A stretch of DNA of 64,000 bases, from the NCBI GenBank assembly GCA_937924525.1, contig CALDSU010000004.1:1-64000 (forward strand), read 5' to 3'. Each line of letters begins with the position of its first letter. Position 1 is the stretch's first letter. The position numbers and the translations under genes are program-made. The notes below the pieces were generated by a model. That model did no database searches. It was not told where the DNA came from and was given only the letters and a program-made list of their open reading frames with translations. The DNA is from an uncultured Bryobacteraceae bacterium. GTDB taxonomy: Bacteria; Acidobacteriota; Terriglobia; Bryobacterales; Bryobacteraceae. This document shows positions 36,355 to 43,640 of the stretch, one piece after another.

Positions 36355-36410
36355 TTATGCCGCAGTGGACAACCGGCCGGGCGATCGGATACAAACATAG
36401 GTCGTTACCC

Positions 36411-37412
36411 ATGCGAAGGACGCTACTGCCTTGGATTGCTTTCGTGGCGGCGGCCGGATACGTCCCGGCCCAGGAACCCACGCTGGTCGAGGTCCGCAAG
36501 ATCTGGGATCAGGGACCCCATAACGCGTTCACCGACCTCATCCGGTTTCGCGGGAAATTCTTCTGCACGTTCCGCGAGGGGGAGGGGCACGTCGGCGGCG
36601 ACGGGACGATTCGTGTGCTGTCGTCGAAGAACGGGCAGTCGTGGCGGTCGGCCGCGCTCCTCAAGGAAGACGGCATTGATCTGCGGGATCCCAAATTCTC
36701 GATTACCCCCGACGGACGGCTCATGATCGTCGCCGGAGGGTCGGTCTACCGCGGAGGACGGAAACTACTGGGGAGGCAGCCGCGCGTGTCCTTCTCCCAG
36801 GACGGATCGAGCTGGTCAGCGCCGCAGCGCGTCCTGACGGAAGGCGAATGGCTCTGGCGCGTCACCTGGCGCCAGGGAAAGGCGTACGGCATCAGCTACC
36901 ACTCGATGCTCGGGGAAGACCGGGATTGGGGCTTGAAACTCGTGGTTTCCGACGACGGAATTCACTACACCGATGTCGCCAGGCTGGACGTGCCCGGGCG
37001 TCCCAATGAGACGACGATCCGGTTCCGGGACGATGGAACGATGGTGGCGCTGGTGCGGAGGGAAGGAACCCCGGAGCACAAGCCCATGGCGTGGATCGGG
37101 GTGAGCCCCCCGCCTTACACCGAATGGACCTGGAAAGAGACCGGCATGCAGGTCGGCGGACCGAACTTCCTGATTCTGCCGGATGGTGCGATGTGGGCGG
37201 TCACGCGCGACTATACCCGTAAACCGCAGTATACGACGGTTCTGGCGCGGATGGACCTCGCCTCGCTCTCCCCCGTGCTCACCCTGCCGAGTGGCGGGGA
37301 CACCAGCTATGGGGGCCTGGTCTGGCACCAGAACCTGCTGTGGATCAGCTACTACTCCGGGCACGAGGGCAAGGACAGCATCTACCTGGCGAAGGTGCGC
37401 CTGCCAAAGTAA
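36411..37412 (+). CDS. exported sialidase-like propeller protein
   Basis: 333 residues from ATG 36411. MRRTLLPWIAFVAAAGYVPAQ is a signal peptide. The rest is a six-bladed propeller with Asp-box-like turns (SSKNGQSW, SQDGSSW, SDDGIHY) and DLRDPKFSITPDGRLM, as in family GH33-like/BNR proteins. FREGEGH and a final ISYYSGHEGKDSIYLAKVRLP match the many uncharacterised exo-sialidase-like proteins of Acidobacteria and Planctomycetes. A full sialidase Arg triad and Tyr nucleophile cannot be confirmed by eye. The short signal and location argue for periplasmic sugar handling. Confidence 0.75.
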   Translation: MRRTLLPWIAFVAAAGYVPAQEPTLVEVRKIWDQGPHNAFTDLIRFRGKFFCTFREGEGHVGGDGTIRVLSSKNGQSWRSAALLKEDGIDLRDPKFSITPDGRLMIVAGGSVYRGGRKLLGRQPRVSFSQDGSSWSAPQRVLTEGEWLWRVTWRQGKAYGISYHSMLGEDRDWGLKLVVSDDGIHYTDVARLDVPGRPNETTIRFRDDGTMVALVRREGTPEHKPMAWIGVSPPPYTEWTWKETGMQVGGPNFLILPDGAMWAVTRDYTRKPQYTTVLARMDLASLSPVLTLPSGGDTSYGGLVWHQNLLWISYYSGHEGKDSIYLAKVRLPK

Positions 37413-37425
37413 TCTACCTCTACTA

Positions 37426-37456
37426 TTGACGAACCACCACCGAGGTTCGGTATACT
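37426..37456 (+). promoter_or_regulatory. predicted promoter giving a leaderless transcript
   Basis: TTGACG (37426-37431) and TATACT (37451-37456) with a 19-base spacer. The start codon GTG 37463 lies 6 bases after the -10 box, exactly where transcription would begin, and no Shine-Dalgarno sequence is present. Confidence 0.55.
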
Positions 37457-37462
37457 CGCGCC

Positions 37463-39136
37463 GTGTCGGTTGCTTCCGAATCTCGCTATGACGTGGTGAT
37501 TGTAGGCGCCGGATTAGCCGGGTTGACCCTGGCGAGGCATCTGCTGCTGTACACGGACAAGACGGTCCTGCTGCTGGACAAGCGTGCGGATCCTCCGGGA
37601 CCTTCGCAAAAGGTCGGCGAATCGCTCGTGCAGCTGAGCGGGTATTACTTCTCGAAGGTTCTGGACCTGGAGGAGTACCTGCTAAGAAATCATTACCTGA
37701 AGTACAACTTGAGGTTTCACTGGCCCACGAGCGGCAAAGCCAACCAGGCTCTGGAGGACTACAGCCGCTCGTTCATCCGCTTCAGCTCGAATCTGGCGAC
37801 GTTTCAGCTTGACCGGAACAAGTTCGAGGAGCACCTGCTGGCCACCGCCCGGGAGCACCCCCGGTGCCGGTTCGTGGGCGGCGTGCAGAATCTGGACGCG
37901 AAATTGAATCCGGGCGGGCCGCACCGGATCTCCTTCAACGGCAGCGCGGCCGAGTGCTCCTGGGTAGTGGACTGCTCGGGGCGCGGGGGATTCCTCAAGC
38001 GGAAGATGGGGCTGGCGCAGAGCAACAACATCCGGCACGGGTCTACCTGGTGCTGGGTCGAAGGCCTAGTCAACATCGAGAAACTGACGGACCGCTCGTG
38101 GACGGAAGTACGGCTGAGCCGGGATCGGATGAAGCAGGGGAATTTCCCTTTCTTTCTGGCCACCAACCACTTCTGCGCCGAGGGCATGTGGTTTTGGATC
38201 ATCCCGCTACACGGCATCACGAGTTTGGGCTTGGTGTATGACAAAGCGGTGCTCGATTCGGACCGTGTCTCTACGGCCAGGAAGATGCTGGAGTTCGTCT
38301 GTGAGAAATGGCCTGTCTTCCAGCGCGACCTTCCGCAGCGGAAGGTCGTGGACGAAGGGCGCTACTACGATTTTTCCTATGACGCCCGCCAGACCATCAG
38401 CGCGGAGCGCTGGGCGATCAGCGGCGAGGCGGGCCGCTTTTCCGATCCGCTCTACAGCCCGGGAAGCGACCTGATCTCGATCTACAACACGCTGATTGTG
38501 GATGCGATCCAGGCCCGCCCTGCGGACCTGAAGCGGAAAGAGAGCGTGTACGAACTCGTGATGCGCGTCATGTACAGCGCCTACGTGCCCTCGTATGCGC
38601 TGAGTTACGACTGCCTGGGCGACCGGCAGGCCTTCACCTACAAGTACGGTTGGGAGCTGGCGATCTATTTCGGGTTCTATGTCCTGCCGTTCATCAACGA
38701 CTTGTTCACGGACGAAGAGTTCCTGCCGCACTTCCTGCGCAAGTTCGGGCTGTTGGGGCCGATCAACCGGAACCTGCAGAACTTTCTGAGCGATTTTTAC
38801 CGTTGGAAGCAAGCCCACGTGCCGCCCGAAACGGAGACAGGCATGAATGATTTCTACGAAATGCGCTGGTTGCGCGAGTCCGAGAAGCTGTTCTACCAGG
38901 TAGGACTCACCCGCGAGGAAGCGATCGAAACGCTGGACATGCATTTTCACCATCTGCGCGAGTATGCGCGCTGGATTGTGGCGCAGGTGTACGCGACGGT
39001 GCTGGGCAAGCCGGAGATCGGCGGCGACGCGGCGTTCCAGGAGCGGGTCAAACTGCGCGACCTGGCATTCGACCCGGAGAAGATGCGCATGGATTATGAA
39101 GCAATGCCGTCCCGGGCGGAGGCGGTGGCGGTATGA
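37463..39136 (+). CDS. FAD-dependent enzyme of the flavin-dependent halogenase family
   Basis: 557 residues. VVIVGAGLAGLTLARHL (GxGxxG, Gly15-17-20) binds FAD. VGESLVQLSGYYF (51-63) is the GES/GEA region. KYNLRFHW places Lys80 where tryptophan halogenase PrnA has its catalytic Lys79. GMWFWIIPLHG gives W243-x-W245-x-I-P248, the WxWxIP motif of flavin-dependent halogenases. GRFSDPLYSPGSDL (near 325) matches the FAD/chloride-loop region. The long helical C-terminal half (about 340-557) is larger than usual. It probably oxidises or halogenates an organic substrate with reduced FAD from a separate reductase. The stop overlaps the carotenoid oxygenase start (ATGA), so both act in one pathway. A non-halogenating monooxygenase or reductase remains possible. 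Confidence 0.78.
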   Translation: MSVASESRYDVVIVGAGLAGLTLARHLLLYTDKTVLLLDKRADPPGPSQKVGESLVQLSGYYFSKVLDLEEYLLRNHYLKYNLRFHWPTSGKANQALEDYSRSFIRFSSNLATFQLDRNKFEEHLLATAREHPRCRFVGGVQNLDAKLNPGGPHRISFNGSAAECSWVVDCSGRGGFLKRKMGLAQSNNIRHGSTWCWVEGLVNIEKLTDRSWTEVRLSRDRMKQGNFPFFLATNHFCAEGMWFWIIPLHGITSLGLVYDKAVLDSDRVSTARKMLEFVCEKWPVFQRDLPQRKVVDEGRYYDFSYDARQTISAERWAISGEAGRFSDPLYSPGSDLISIYNTLIVDAIQARPADLKRKESVYELVMRVMYSAYVPSYALSYDCLGDRQAFTYKYGWELAIYFGFYVLPFINDLFTDEEFLPHFLRKFGLLGPINRNLQNFLSDFYRWKQAHVPPETETGMNDFYEMRWLRESEKLFYQVGLTREEAIETLDMHFHHLREYARWIVAQVYATVLGKPEIGGDAAFQERVKLRDLAFDPEKMRMDYEAMPSRAEAVAV

Positions 39137-40551
39137 GCGCCCCGGCGGCGGTGGATCTGGCGCCGTTCCTCGAGCGGGCGTTTTTTTTTGATGCGGTCGA
39201 GGACTCCTACCGCATTACGGGCATCCAGGGAGACGTGCCCGCGGCGGTGCGCGGCACGTACTACGTGAACGGCCCCGCCCGTTTCACCCGCGCGGGCATG
39301 CAATATAAGCATTGGCTGGACGGCGACGGCATGGTGTGCGCCGCGCGATTCGACGACGCAGGAGTCACTTTCACCAACCGGTTTGTGCGCACGGCGAAGC
39401 TGAGGGACGAAGAAGCCGCGGGGCGTTTCCTGTATCGCGGATTCGGCACGGCGTTCGCCGACGACCGTCTCCGGCGCAACGTGATGCTGGAACCGCCGGT
39501 CAACGTGAGCGCCTATCCGTTTGCGGGCGTGCTGCTGGCTTTCGGCGAACAGTCGCTGCCCTACGAACTCGACCCCGTCACGCTCGAGACGCGCGGCGAG
39601 TACGATTTTCACGGCAAGCTGAACGGCTTGTCGCCGTTCGCGGCGCACGCCAAGTTCGATCCGGCGAATGGGCACATGCTGAACTTCGGGATTTCCTACG
39701 CGGCGGACCATCCCGTGGTCAACATTTACGAGTTCGCGCCGGACGCCTCGCTGATCCGCCGCCGGCGGCACCCGATCCGGATGCCGCACTCGAATCATGA
39801 TTTCGGCTTTACCGCCAACTGGACCTGTTTCTTTTTGAGCCCGCTGCTGATGAACTTTCCCAAGTTCTGGAACGAGCGGGTGAGCGTGATGGAGTCGCTG
39901 ACGTGGGAGCCGGAAAAGGGGTCGCGCATCCTGCTGGTTCCCCGGCAAGCCAGGGACGCGGCGGCCATCGAAGTTCCCGCCGGCTGCGGCTACTGTCTCC
40001 ACCTGATCAACTGTTTCGAGACCGAAGGCCACCTGGTGATGGACATTCTGGAACTGGAGGCTCCGGTTTATCCCGAGTACCAGCCGGTGCCGGATCTGTT
40101 CCCCACCGTGACGCCGTGCCGCCCGACTCGCTACGTGGTGGACCTGGCCAACGGCCAGTTGGCCGAGCGCCGCGTGATGGCGTACGATTGCGCGCCGGAC
40201 TTTCCGAACATCGACCCGCGCCTGCCGGGTCAGGCGTATAGCGACTTCTGGATGTTGGGCATCTCGCACTCCGGCAAGCCGGGGCGCAAATTCTTCGATC
40301 AGCTTGCGCACGGCTCGTGGAAAAAGGGCGAGGTTCACGACCTCTACCAGACCGAGCCGGGCGTCTATCTGGGCGGAGAACCCAACTACGTGAACGGCTA
40401 TATTCTCGTCGAACAACTGGACGCGCGGTCGCGCGAGGCGTCGCTGCTGCTGTTCGACGCCCGGCAGGTCGCCAACGGTCCGGTGACGCGCCTGCCCCTG
40501 CGGCATCCCATCCACCTGGGTTTTCATACCAGTTTCGCGCCCGCTGAGTAG
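39133..40551 (+). CDS. carotenoid cleavage oxygenase (RPE65/CCO family)
   Basis: 472 residues, normal length. The four iron-binding histidines are recognisable: His172 (AHAKFDP), His222 (NHDFGFT), His290 (CLHLINCFE) and His465 (GFHTSF). GTYYVNGPARF and HWLDGDGMV near the N-terminus are the family's opening motifs. These seven-bladed non-haem iron enzymes split double bonds of carotenoids or stilbenoids with O2. Translationally coupled to the halogenase-like gene. No carotenoid biosynthesis genes are in the window, so the substrate may be another conjugated or aromatic alkene. No signal peptide. Confidence 0.92.
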   Translation: MSAPAAVDLAPFLERAFFFDAVEDSYRITGIQGDVPAAVRGTYYVNGPARFTRAGMQYKHWLDGDGMVCAARFDDAGVTFTNRFVRTAKLRDEEAAGRFLYRGFGTAFADDRLRRNVMLEPPVNVSAYPFAGVLLAFGEQSLPYELDPVTLETRGEYDFHGKLNGLSPFAAHAKFDPANGHMLNFGISYAADHPVVNIYEFAPDASLIRRRRHPIRMPHSNHDFGFTANWTCFFLSPLLMNFPKFWNERVSVMESLTWEPEKGSRILLVPRQARDAAAIEVPAGCGYCLHLINCFETEGHLVMDILELEAPVYPEYQPVPDLFPTVTPCRPTRYVVDLANGQLAERRVMAYDCAPDFPNIDPRLPGQAYSDFWMLGISHSGKPGRKFFDQLAHGSWKKGEVHDLYQTEPGVYLGGEPNYVNGYILVEQLDARSREASLLLFDARQVANGPVTRLPLRHPIHLGFHTSFAPAE

Positions 40552-40734: not shown

Positions 40735-41994
40735 TCAGACGGGGACGCTTTCGGGCGCGTGTTTGCGCAGCAGCCAGGTCGCCGTGAGCGCGAGCGCCAC
40801 GAAGCAGGTCGCCACCGGCACGCCCCGCAGCGGCGAAGGGTGAATGGCAAATTTGAGCAGCGCGTCGCCGACGGCGACCCACGTCAGCAGGAGAAACGAC
40901 CAGGCCACCATGGAGAGGCTGCGGCGATATCGCCGCCACACCAGGAACCAGATCGCCAGCGAGGCAGCCGCGGCCAGCGTCCAACCCATCCACTCGGGCC
41001 CGCGCCCCCACTCGCGGTGGTAGTACCGGCTCCAGTCGAAGAAGAAGGCGCAGCAGGTGAGGGTGATCGCGATGTGCCAGGACAGGCTCCGCGAACGACT
41101 GGCTGCCCACAACAGGAAAGCCCCGACCAGGGTGTAGGAGTACCGCACTGGGAAGAGCGGGTACGTGAACACCGTGACGGTGGCCAGGAATCCGACCGCC
41201 GCCAGGGTCAGCCAAAAGCCGGAAGGAGGCCGCTCGACGGCTGATTCAGGCGCCGCGAGCGCGTCGCGCACCAGCCAGGCCGCCCAGCCCAGGGCCCAGC
41301 CGAAGCAGAAGCCGAAGGTGAATTCCATGGTCTTCCACCAGTCGGACCAGATGGTGATCTTGGCCTGCTGAGCTAGCCCGAAAATCAACCCCCCGAGGCC
41401 GAAACCGATCCCGCCCCCCAGCAAGCCCAGGTAGGCAAACCAGGCGGGCGCGGGCCCGGCGCCGATCCGCCAGAAATACACGAGCAGCAGCAAGGCGCCG
41501 AGCAGCAGGCCGGCCCACAACTCCTCGCGCGGCCGGTCCAGGCGATGCGAAAAGTAGATCAGCTTGGGCTGATTCACCAGTTTCCAGCCAAGGTGCGTGC
41601 CCAGTATCATGAGCCCCACCGCGGCCAGGACATGGCGCGAGCCGAGGCGGTCGAGGCGGAAGGCGGCGCCCAGCACCGCCCCGCCGAGCAGTCCCCAAAC
41701 CGCGCCTTTCAGCGCTAGCCCGAGGACTCCCCACCACATGGTTTCCGCCTCGCGCGTAAAACCCACCGTCTGGCCGTACGTCTCCTGGCCGCCGAAGCCA
41801 ATGCCGACCGCGCCGAAGGCGGCGATGATGGCGACGTCCGGATCGCGCCGCCCAAGGGCAAGACACAGCGCGAGGGCGACCATCGCGCCCGGAATCATGG
41901 CGCCGAGCGGTCCACCGCCGATAAACCCGCGCAGTCCCCACCCGAGCGACATGGTCACGGCGGGGAACAGCAAGCAGCGAAACAACGGGGGCAT
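40735..41994 (-). CDS. polytopic membrane protein of unknown family
   Basis: 419 residues with about ten to twelve membrane segments. The N-terminus has a Gly-rich SLGWGLRGFIGGGPLGAMIPG and later FGAVGIGFGGQETYGQTVGF, a pattern I have seen in uncharacterised proteins of Acidobacteria and Planctomycetes. Charged residues in loops (RREWGRGPEW) are few. No transporter signature is recognised. It lies 7 bases downstream of the GH88 gene on the same strand, so it may move or sense the products of that enzyme. Confidence 0.65.
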   Translation of the reverse strand: MPPLFRCLLFPAVTMSLGWGLRGFIGGGPLGAMIPGAMVALALCLALGRRDPDVAIIAAFGAVGIGFGGQETYGQTVGFTREAETMWWGVLGLALKGAVWGLLGGAVLGAAFRLDRLGSRHVLAAVGLMILGTHLGWKLVNQPKLIYFSHRLDRPREELWAGLLLGALLLLVYFWRIGAGPAPAWFAYLGLLGGGIGFGLGGLIFGLAQQAKITIWSDWWKTMEFTFGFCFGWALGWAAWLVRDALAAPESAVERPPSGFWLTLAAVGFLATVTVFTYPLFPVRYSYTLVGAFLLWAASRSRSLSWHIAITLTCCAFFFDWSRYYHREWGRGPEWMGWTLAAAASLAIWFLVWRRYRRSLSMVAWSFLLLTWVAVGDALLKFAIHPSPLRGVPVATCFVALALTATWLLRKHAPESVPV

Positions 41995-42001
41995 AGAGGG
42001 A

Positions 42002-43138
42002 CTACTGTCCCACAGGCCCGAGCGCGGTGTCGAGGGCTTCCACGAAGAAGTGCTCGCCCCACATCACCGACTCGTTCACCCCCAGCCCCTTGTGGATGTG
42101 GTAGACGCCCCCTTTGAGGATGCCTTCCCACTCAGGGTCGTCAAAGGCGGCGTACTTGGCGCACAGGCTGGTCAGCACATGCCGCGCCACCGCTTCGTAA
42201 TAGGCGCCCTTCACGGGGTCGGGCGTCAACCGGGCCAGCCGCAGCAGTCCCGAGGCCGCAATCGCGGAGGCGGACGTGTCCACCTGTTTGCGGCTTTCCT
42301 CCGGCGCGTCGTAATCCCAGGGGGCCACGCCGTCGGCGGGCGTATGCAGAATGAAGAAGTCCGCGCAGGCCTGGGCCGTTTGCAGGAACCGGGGATCGCG
42401 CGTGTAGTGATAACAGGTGCCGAAGCCGTAGAGGGCCCACGCCAGGCCGCGCGACCAGCAGGAATCGCCGCGATAACCCTGATGCGTGGACTGCCGCAGG
42501 AACTCGCCGGTTTTCAGGTCAAACAACCCTTCGTGCGCCGTCGAGCCGTCGCCGCGCACCAGCACCCGCCGCGACGTCAGCGTATGGCGCATCGCCACGT
42601 CCATCAGCCGGGCGTCGCCGGTTTCCCGCGCGGCATAAAAAATGATGCCCACATTCATCATGATGTCGATGAACAAAGAGTCGTCGCTGACGAACGAGCG
42701 CAGGTAGGCGCCCTTTTCCTTAAAGCGCAGAGCCATCGTCTTGCCCGCCTCGACGAGCACGGCTTTAAGGGTGGGATCCTGGGTGAGCTGATGCCAGCGG
42801 TAGTACGTGGAAATGAAGATGAAGCCCAGGTCATGCACGTTGCGGTCGAGTTTGCGGGGCTCGAGAGGTTTGGAGTAGCGGATCGCCTGTTCGCGCCACC
42901 AGCGGTTCTCCTCGCTGCCGAACGGCGTGCGCTGGTGCAGGATCCACATCATGCCCGGCAGGAAGCCGTCGCACCAGTGGGTCCAGGCTTCGCCCTGGTG
43001 CTTCCATTTGCCCTGCCGGGTATACATTGGGTAAAAATCGGGATGCCGCTGGATCAGGCCGCGGATCTTCTCGCCCGCCAAGCTGAGCGTGCGCAGAAAC
43101 AACTCCCGGGAAGAAGAAGCAGTTTGAATTTCGATCAC
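42002..43138 (-). CDS. GH88-type unsaturated glucuronyl hydrolase
   Basis: 378 residues from GTG 43138. (alpha/alpha)6-barrel motifs of GH88: [32 protein letters not shown] (catalytic Asp of NxHDLGF), [49 protein letters not shown] and [15 protein letters not shown]. The enzyme hydrates the double bond of unsaturated uronic acid ends left by polysaccharide lyases. No signal peptide is visible, so it should act in the cytoplasm on imported oligomers. TATAAT at 43147-43152 lies 8 bases before the GTG, another leaderless-looking start. Confidence 0.9.
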
Positions 43139-43152: not shown

Positions 43153-43181
43153 TTGGTTCGCCTCCCCCGTTCCGCTTGTGT

Positions 43182-43640
43182 ATGCCTCATGCGAACAACG
43201 GCTCTAAGCCCACGATCGACCCGCGGTACGCCTGTTTTCGCCTCCTGGTCGGGCCTTCCCGGATTCACCGGTGGGGTGTCTTCGCCGGAGAGGACATTCC
43301 GAAGGGCCGGAAGGTGATCGAGTATACCGGCGAGAAGATCAGCCGGCGGGAGACCAAGCGCCGCTCGGAGAACAGCCCGCTGATCTACCTGTTCACGCTG
43401 GACAAGTATTGGACCATCGACGGAGCGGTGGGAGGCAGCGGCGCCGAGTACATCAATCATTGTTGCGACCCGAATATCCGCGTGTGGATTCACAAAGGCC
43501 ACATCCTGTACATGGCCAAGCGGGACATCCGGCGCGGGGAAGAGCTGACCGTGGACTATCACTTTTCCAAGGACGTAGAGATTGTGCCCTGTAGCTGTGG
43601 CGCGGCGAATTGCCGCGGCACGATCAATTTGAAGGAATAG
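43182..43640 (+). CDS. SET-domain protein lysine methyltransferase
   Basis: 152 residues from ATG 43182 (a GTG two codons earlier is possible). A complete SET plus post-SET: SRIHRWGVFAGEDIPKGRKVIEYTGE, AEYINHCCDPNIRVW (the NHxCxPN motif), RGEELTVDYHF and the Zn-binding post-SET CSCGAANCRGTIN. The domain makes up nearly the whole protein. SET enzymes methylate lysine on proteins; bacterial ones are rarer than eukaryotic and their targets are mostly unknown. Ends 53 bases before the HAD gene. Confidence 0.9.
   Translation: MPHANNGSKPTIDPRYACFRLLVGPSRIHRWGVFAGEDIPKGRKVIEYTGEKISRRETKRRSENSPLIYLFTLDKYWTIDGAVGGSGAEYINHCCDPNIRVWIHKGHILYMAKRDIRRGEELTVDYHFSKDVEIVPCSCGAANCRGTINLKE

Follow-up and report, generated by a model that had tools for sequence, protein, structure and literature searches.

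The halogenase PltA acts on a pyrrole loaded onto a carrier protein (PMC6424973). For phytoene-desaturase-like proteins of anammox bacteria, fatty chains have been proposed as the substrate (PMC2649909), and two anammox CrtI homologs showed no CrtI activity when tested (PMC4790861). A description of a halogenase paired with a carotenoid cleavage oxygenase (CCO) was not found in the open-licence literature, in agreement with an earlier note on the DNA studied here, which knew of no such pathway. Acidobacteriota are abundant soil bacteria with a secondary metabolism that has received little study. Here, we analyzed a 64,000-nucleotide stretch (called the window) from an uncultured Bryobacteraceae bacterium of this phylum (assembly GCA_937924525.1, positions 1 to 64,000 of contig CALDSU010000004.1), which carries a gene for a flavin-dependent-halogenase-like protein (hal; 37463..39136, forward strand, GTG start, 557 amino acids) followed by a gene for a CCO-family protein (39133..40551, forward strand, ATG start, 472 amino acids). 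The most useful result is that this pair belongs to a specific, conserved and often unlinked gene set. We lean slightly towards the reading in which hal and CCO are the oxidative tailoring module within a multi-gene Acidobacteriota pathway that resembles a type II fatty acid synthase/polyketide synthase (FAS/PKS) and makes a carrier-bound polyene.

A short-peptide-pattern scan of 84,980 species genomes, which is sensitive to near relatives only, returned 11 loci, all labelled as Acidobacteriota lineages. Further loci came from whole-genome searches in a family sample and a phylum sample, in which only the best few first-look candidates were scored per genome. Together they comprise 29 non-redundant ortholog loci with the window counted; L001, L013-L024, L054-L064 and L077 stand outside the counts, being short repeats of the window, L002-L008, L042-L046 and L083-L094. 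CCO lies directly downstream of hal in 26 of the 29 loci. Two of the three genomes without an adjacent CCO carry one on another contig (G371 and G531, matched at 52% and 46%, respectively), and the third, the 77% complete G424, gave no match. The possibility that the pair is confined to the window genome is therefore rejected: as the neighbourhood search proposed in the earlier note found, the pair occurs across the phylum, its association is beyond chance and it is common to several Acidobacteriota families. Distances between hal sequences correlate with those between CCO sequences (r = 0.92; 25 loci, 300 pairs, the frameshifted CCO of G060 at L003 excluded), as expected for genes inherited together. 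In G060 the CCO gene (L003:9767-11189) is split by the frameshift into two overlapping tblastn pieces, which may reflect an assembly error or a decaying gene. A fusion of the two proteins was considered for L046 and L012, where reading frames of 1,040 and 1,056 amino acids were called, and was discarded after a frame-by-frame check resolved separate adjoining or overlapping genes. No CCO was seen in the stretches examined around more distant hal relatives, which share 26-33% identity and come from 11 wide loci (L047-L053, L095-L098) outside the 29-locus counts. Some of them adjoin a putative acyl carrier protein (ACP; by eye), an HpaB-type hydroxylase (in L047, by Pfam) or, in L048, a gene that resembles AMP ligases by eye, and with such neighbours they look like separate pathways; L047 (1154-4751), L048 and L053 are possibly separate halometabolite clusters in Acidobacteriota.

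The pair is accompanied by further genes even where these are not adjacent to it. In the family sample (n=200; identity of at least 52% for hal, 58% for an HMG-CoA reductase (HMGR)-like marker and 48% for CCO) hal was found in 13 genomes, the HMGR-like marker in 15 (the same 13, G130 and G170) and CCO in 14 (the 13 and G170); G130, 73% complete, has the HMGR-like marker only. In the phylum sample (n=396; at least 47%, 54% and 40% identity, respectively) the numbers were 12, 11 and 11, both marker sets lying within the 12, and G424 is the hal genome without CCO. Members of one genus differ in the same manner: in g41, G096, G141, G178, G193 and G198 carry hal, HMGR-like and CCO genes, and G123 and G186 carry distant hal relatives only (32% at best) and neither marker. 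A CrtI-like protein (at least 46% identity) is present in 24 of 24 hal genomes and the HMGR-like marker in 23 of them. The two predicted operon genes used as markers co-occur with the pair in nearly all genomes.

The nature of this gene set is apparent from the loci in which it is linked to the pair. Ketosynthase (KS) genes were found in the examined flanks of 13 of the 29 loci (G087, G117, G121, G583, G315, G436, G531, G565, one of the two in G444, G515, L004, L009 and L010). The fullest set, in L004, reads ACP, KS, a second KS-like gene, HMGR, FabG, a CrtI-like gene fused to an acyltransferase, hal and CCO; in L009, L010, G436 and G583 hal comes immediately after the second KS. Near the pair in G023, G214 and the second locus of G444, a CrtI-like or acyltransferase gene and no KS was called. 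The operon proteins of L009 and L004 matched PF00550, PF00109/PF02801, PF00368, FabG and PF01553 in Pfam and NCBIfam; FabG reached 232 bits with FlxB (cut-off 340) and the CrtI-like protein 162 bits with crtI_fam (cut-off 238), and the KS-like partner has no active-site Cys. By these sequence assignments, some genomes link the pair to an ACP, a KS, a Cys-less KS-like partner, FabG, a CrtI/CrtISO-family protein, an HMGR-family protein and a PlsC-type acyltransferase.

In the window genome the matching operon is located on contig C8 (L161, minus strand) and not beside the pair. It encodes a cNMP/patatin protein, an ACP (recognized by eye), KS, the KS-like partner, the HMGR-family enzyme with an altered substrate pocket (L161:12503-13828, minus strand; orthologs in 22 other genomes), FabG, a CrtI-like protein, a TetR protein, an acyltransferase, two ABC1/UbiB-like proteins and a polyketide-cyclase/START-type protein. 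The earlier note had treated the pair as a pathway of its own; it seems instead to belong to a type II FAS/PKS-like pathway with the remaining genes located away from the pair. The combination of a KS pair, an ACP and a ketoreductase that characterizes highly reducing type II PKSs is present in L004, L009 and the window-genome operon. Among PDB entries, the window-genome KS was best matched by 9s5h_B (549 bits), then by 6kxd (369 bits), which we take to be the KS-chain length factor of ishigamide, and the KS-like partner by 9s5h_C (257 bits). The two ABC1/UbiB-family proteins and the START-type protein (L161:3665-7983, minus strand) are of kinds seen in quinone and lipid pathways. The same region contains a short phasin-like protein (by eye, no Pfam match), and FG-GAP/TPR proteins adjoin both a stand-alone hal-CCO locus (L007:5622-7979, with UnbV_ASPIC) and the KS operon (L174:3995-7222; by eye, also L161:18637-19899).

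Both members of the pair carry the residues expected of their families. The hal protein has a GxGxxG motif, K80 in the context HYLKYNLRFHW, the motif W243-F-W-I-I-P248 and a halide loop, DPLYSPG, and it matches PF04820 (Trp_halogenase) with 38.7 bits (cut-off 21). In an alignment of 37 sequences (the window hal, 27 orthologs with at least 45% identity and 9 distant relatives) K80, W245, I247, P248, G15 and G17 are invariant and W243 is conserved in at least 90%. In sequence/profile alignments K80 coincides with the catalytic Lys found in CmlS and in PltA, so that the halogenase hallmarks named in the earlier note hold up. The AlphaFold model built from the 37 sequences (predicted local distance difference test (pLDDT) score of 93.7) is best matched in Foldseek by CtcP, followed by PltM and PltA. 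The CCO matches PF03055 (RPE65) with 309 bits (cut-off 27), and its four iron-binding His residues, 172, 222, 290 and 465, are kept in every covering row of a 26-row alignment (26, 26, 25 and 25 rows, respectively), in accordance with the four-His enzyme described before; its AlphaFold model has a pLDDT of 93.8. A place for hal among the geranylgeranyl reductases is not supported. The protein scores 38.6 bits with TIGR02032, below the cut-off of 158.8, and the family-profile search ranks halogenases first and returned no geranylgeranyl-reductase structure at E 1e-5, this being a profile ranking and not a tree.

Taken together, the gene set suggests the following pathway. KS, its partner, ACP and FabG would build a carrier-bound chain, which the CrtI-like enzyme may convert to a conjugated polyene. 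The hal enzyme would use FADH2 and O2 to add halogen or oxygen to the chain, and the iron-dependent CCO would split one conjugated C=C bond into two carbonyl products. The HMGR-like enzyme may reduce a thioester, giving an aldehyde or an alcohol, and the acyltransferase may place the product on a lipid. Spelled out in full, this is a non-isoprenoid polyene of Acidobacteriota that is made on a type II FAS/PKS-like carrier, desaturated by the CrtI-like enzyme, functionalized by hal, cleaved by CCO to 'apo' products and released by thioester reduction through the HMGR-family enzyme. We put this full version forward tentatively, as somewhat doubtful. Several observations weigh against a carrier-based pathway. 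G170, 96% complete, has the HMGR-like marker and a CCO (matched from residue 115 on) and no hal ortholog was found in it, and G207 has the pair and no HMGR-like match. The association of hal with the HMGR-like marker (Fisher P of 1e-18 in the family and 1e-20 in the phylum sample) overstates independence because the genomes are related. The examined stretch has neither a KS nor a CrtI/acyltransferase gene call in 13 of the 29 loci, among which is the window; in two of the 13, L011 and G424, it is cut short by the contig end. No dehydratase was noticed among the operon genes given to Pfam, a set that covers only part of the genes in some loci. The case for a polyene is accordingly built on three things, namely the CrtI-like enzyme, the CCO and the resemblance of the KS, and the conjugated chain on the ACP is a putative one, proposed by analogy with known systems such as the anammox cluster. 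Finally, the window genome has CrtB-like and CrtI genes on contig C5 (L175, G000:C5:161615-163875 region; crtI_fam 600 bits) and seems able, by these gene matches, to start an ordinary carotenoid pathway, and in G436 a gene of the phytoene/squalene-synthase family (SQS_PSY) stands next to a CrtI-like one, so that a carotenoid substrate is possible in these two genomes.

The last point leads to the alternative in which the pair is a stand-alone apocarotenoid module, with hal halogenating or epoxidizing a C40 carotenoid, CCO cleaving it to a signal or pigment and the unlinked operon being unrelated. Besides the carotenoid genes just mentioned, the fold of the CCO is in keeping with such a module, as the apocarotenoid oxygenase (ACO) of Synechocystis is its best Foldseek match (template modelling (TM) score 0.87-0.90) and aromatic and lignostilbene dioxygenases rank lower. 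Opposed to this, a phytoene synthase is no general feature of the hal genomes: in 12 of the 24 the SQS_PSY genes number exactly two, side by side and without a third (G105, G060, G104, G096, G141, G198, G178, G193, G023, G087, G117 and G315). These genes look like HpnC and HpnD, which disfavours a C40 apocarotenoid; in G104, the only one of the 12 scored in this way, the two reach 359 bits with HpnC (cut-off 250) and 277 bits with HpnD (just under the cut-off of 278.6). The remaining hal genomes have between 0 and 3 SQS_PSY genes each, with the type assigned for the window genome only. As the HMGR-like and CrtI-like operon genes also accompany the pair across genomes, we regard the apocarotenoid module as unlikely. 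A stilbenoid or lignin-dimer module, in which CCO would be a lignostilbene-type dioxygenase and hal would halogenate or hydroxylate a phenol, draws on the sequence comparisons: 5v2d, a lignostilbene dioxygenase, is the top phmmer match, and the lignostilbene dioxygenase model is the best in NCBIfam. Its 165 bits are far under the cut-off of 800, however, and the protein stays below the cut-offs of all three NCBIfam models listed, among them that of the 8'-apo-carotenoid 13,14-cleaving dioxygenase (100 bits, cut-off 675). Moreover, the sites aligned with one Tyr and one Lys in 5v2d, presumably the residues that hold the phenol in stilbene cleavers, are occupied by F104 in all 26 rows and by G138 in 24, the other two having Ala at the latter site. 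This replacement disfavours a stilbenoid substrate and makes the module quite improbable in our judgement. Thus, of the three substrates offered by the earlier note, the stilbenoid and the C40 carotenoid are disfavoured and a carrier-derived polyene is left. A mevalonate/isoprenoid cluster, with an ordinary HMG-CoA reductase feeding terpenes to the CrtI-like enzyme and CCO, would fit the family assignment of the HMGR-like protein (PF00368, 367 bits in L004) and its catalytic Glu, Lys, Asp and His, which are kept in an alignment of 23 sequences (His is uncovered in the partial L130; L136, at 44% and not the operon copy, was excluded). At two sites that we take to have their usual roles in HMG-CoA reductase the operon enzyme deviates: the DKK motif is replaced by EKR, EKK or EKH in all 23 sequences, and the Lys of the KNLLG loop is kept in one, replaced by Arg in two and by other residues in 20. 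In contrast, G214, G444, G531, G436 and G565 have, beside a mevalonate-kinase-like gene, a second HMGR that is canonical at both sites, and from this comparison a different thioester substrate is suggested for the operon enzyme. Mevalonate-kinase-family matches below the curated cut-off (163 bits) are present in 24 of 24 genomes, and none of the 24 has one above it, a soft test because the kinase-like genes beside canonical HMGRs score 139-161 bits and are still below the cut-off; the best score in the window genome is 49 bits, and scores in its family reach 97, perhaps from other kinases. With KS, ACP and FabG encoded in the same operon, we hold an isoprenoid cluster to be very unlikely.

The remaining alternative leaves the carrier-based pathway in place and concerns what hal does in it, namely whether it is an FADH2-dependent oxygenase (epoxidase or hydroxylase) of halogenase-like fold that transfers no halogen. 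In the VIA comparison, which covers the top Foldseek-ranked structures and thus leaves room for families beyond that list, the hal model gave Z scores of 30.0 with PltM (root-mean-square deviation 3.1, 426-430 residues aligned), 29.8 with Bmp2 and 29.5 with CtcP, and of 28.7 with 3nix; halogenases span 26-30 and p-hydroxybenzoate-hydroxylase-type monooxygenases 26-27. With values this close, the fold alone cannot tell a halogenase from a hydroxylase. The protein scores 49.2 bits with the NCBIfam CmlS equivalog, which represents CmlS-type alkyl halogenases (cut-off 900), and its weak NCBIfam matches include LodB, GoxB and QhpG, which we take to be non-halogenating proteins. The halide loop points in the same direction. 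All 29 rows compared (the window hal and 28 relatives) have SPG, with Pro at the first and Gly at the second halide-site position, whereas the printed alignments of eight solved halogenases, a set that does not extend to PltM, RadH, MalA' or PrnA, read SSG (PltA, CndH, Mpy16, ChlB4 and Bmp2), SQG (CmlS), STG (8zop) or SRG (CtcP). The canonical halide site is described in PMC7336383 as a pair of backbone NH groups, of which the second generally belongs to Gly. As Pro offers no NH at the first position, the loop is real evidence against ordinary halogenation by hal, but it is indecisive, the same source terming the relevance of the site unclear. On the other side of the balance are the conserved catalytic Lys and WxWxIP motif and the halogenases that head both sequence and fold comparisons. 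We judge a non-halogenating oxygenase to be only a little short of even probability. Hal is thus a putative halogenase, with a loop that differs from those of the eight solved enzymes. For the carrier-based pathway, the outline given before, in which a conjugated alkene is halogenated or oxidized and then cleaved, is retained as the best one available.

The stop codon of hal and the start codon of CCO overlap by 4 bases in an ATGA (39133..39136, forward strand; from the reading-frame coordinates and the sequence), as had been noticed earlier, and translational coupling of the two genes through this overlap is likely. The same 4-base overlap is possible by choice of start codon in 15 of the 26 pair loci, the start codons having been chosen by the analyst. 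The claim that both genes are transcribed from one leaderless promoter is upheld as plausible only. A candidate was read by eye at 37426..37456 on the forward strand (TTGACG at 37426-31, a 19-base spacer, TATACT at 37451-56), ending 6 bases before the GTG at 37463, and in a comparison of upstream stretches from 13 loci tgcTAGAAT sits 6 bases 5' of the start codon in L002 and L003, the closest relatives. A promoter consensus scan of the window that allowed spacers of 16-18 returned none, the candidate spacer being 19. A leaderless start of hal is plausible from these motifs. Flanking the pair within the window (36357-37412 and 40735-43138) are open reading frames of 351 and 418 amino acids without a Pfam match and a GH88-family protein, none of which clustered with genes found around the pair in the relatives. 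Further downstream (43176-43640, forward strand) this bacterial genome encodes a SET-domain protein of 154 amino acids (PF00856, 86 bits).

Through the analysis an orphan pair becomes a proposed pathway that is open to testing and occurs in several families of Acidobacteriota, and further genes are assigned to it even where they are unlinked. If the carrier-based reading is true, CCO chemistry would extend to chains made on carrier proteins, in a polyketide parallel to the formation of apocarotenoids, and an HMGR-family enzyme working in a FAS/PKS-like operon would be a new job for this fold. Hal and its orthologs, with their halogenase fold and altered halide site, would likewise serve as a test of the role of that site.

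Compared with the flavin-dependent halogenases PltM, CtcP, PltA, Bmp2, CmlS and CndH, hal shares the fold, GxGxxG, WxWxIP, the catalytic Lys and the DPxxSxG loop, but it has 16-22% identity to them over the aligned part, Pro at the first halide-site position and a CCO as companion. The window CCO shares PF03055, the four His residues and the fold (TM 0.80-0.90, query-normalized, among the matches listed) with Synechocystis ACO and the bacterial lignostilbene dioxygenases; it differs from them in its 21-26% identity, in the replaced stilbene-cleaver Tyr and Lys and in its type II FAS/PKS-like partner genes. Among multi-gene systems, aryl polyene/flexirubin clusters resemble the operon in the FlxB-matching FabG and the logic of the KS pair. 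The gene set departs from the usual make-up of aryl polyene clusters: no ammonia lyase or aryl-starter genes were noticed in it, and HMGR-like, CrtI-like and CCO genes are present. The anammox 'ladderane' FASII kuste3603-3608 likewise clusters ACP, FabF, a non-canonical FabF and a phytoene-desaturase-like enzyme (PMC4790861 and PMC2649909), a likeness by description and not by sequence; unlike the operon it has FabZ and a radical SAM enzyme (PMC4790861), and word searches of the available text met no halogenase in PMC4790861 and no HMG in PMC2649909. A search of the open-licence literature returned nothing on an HMG-CoA reductase with a ketosynthase/chain length factor in Acidobacteriota. To the make-up of highly reducing type II PKSs (6kxd; 9s5h/9s5i) the operon and the pair add HMGR-like, CrtI-like, PlsC-type, UbiB-like, hal and CCO genes, and no dehydratase was noticed in the operon. 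These PKSs have in common with it the KS with a Cys-less partner, ACP and FabG, and chains of one such system, 9s5h, are the best match of both the KS and its partner.

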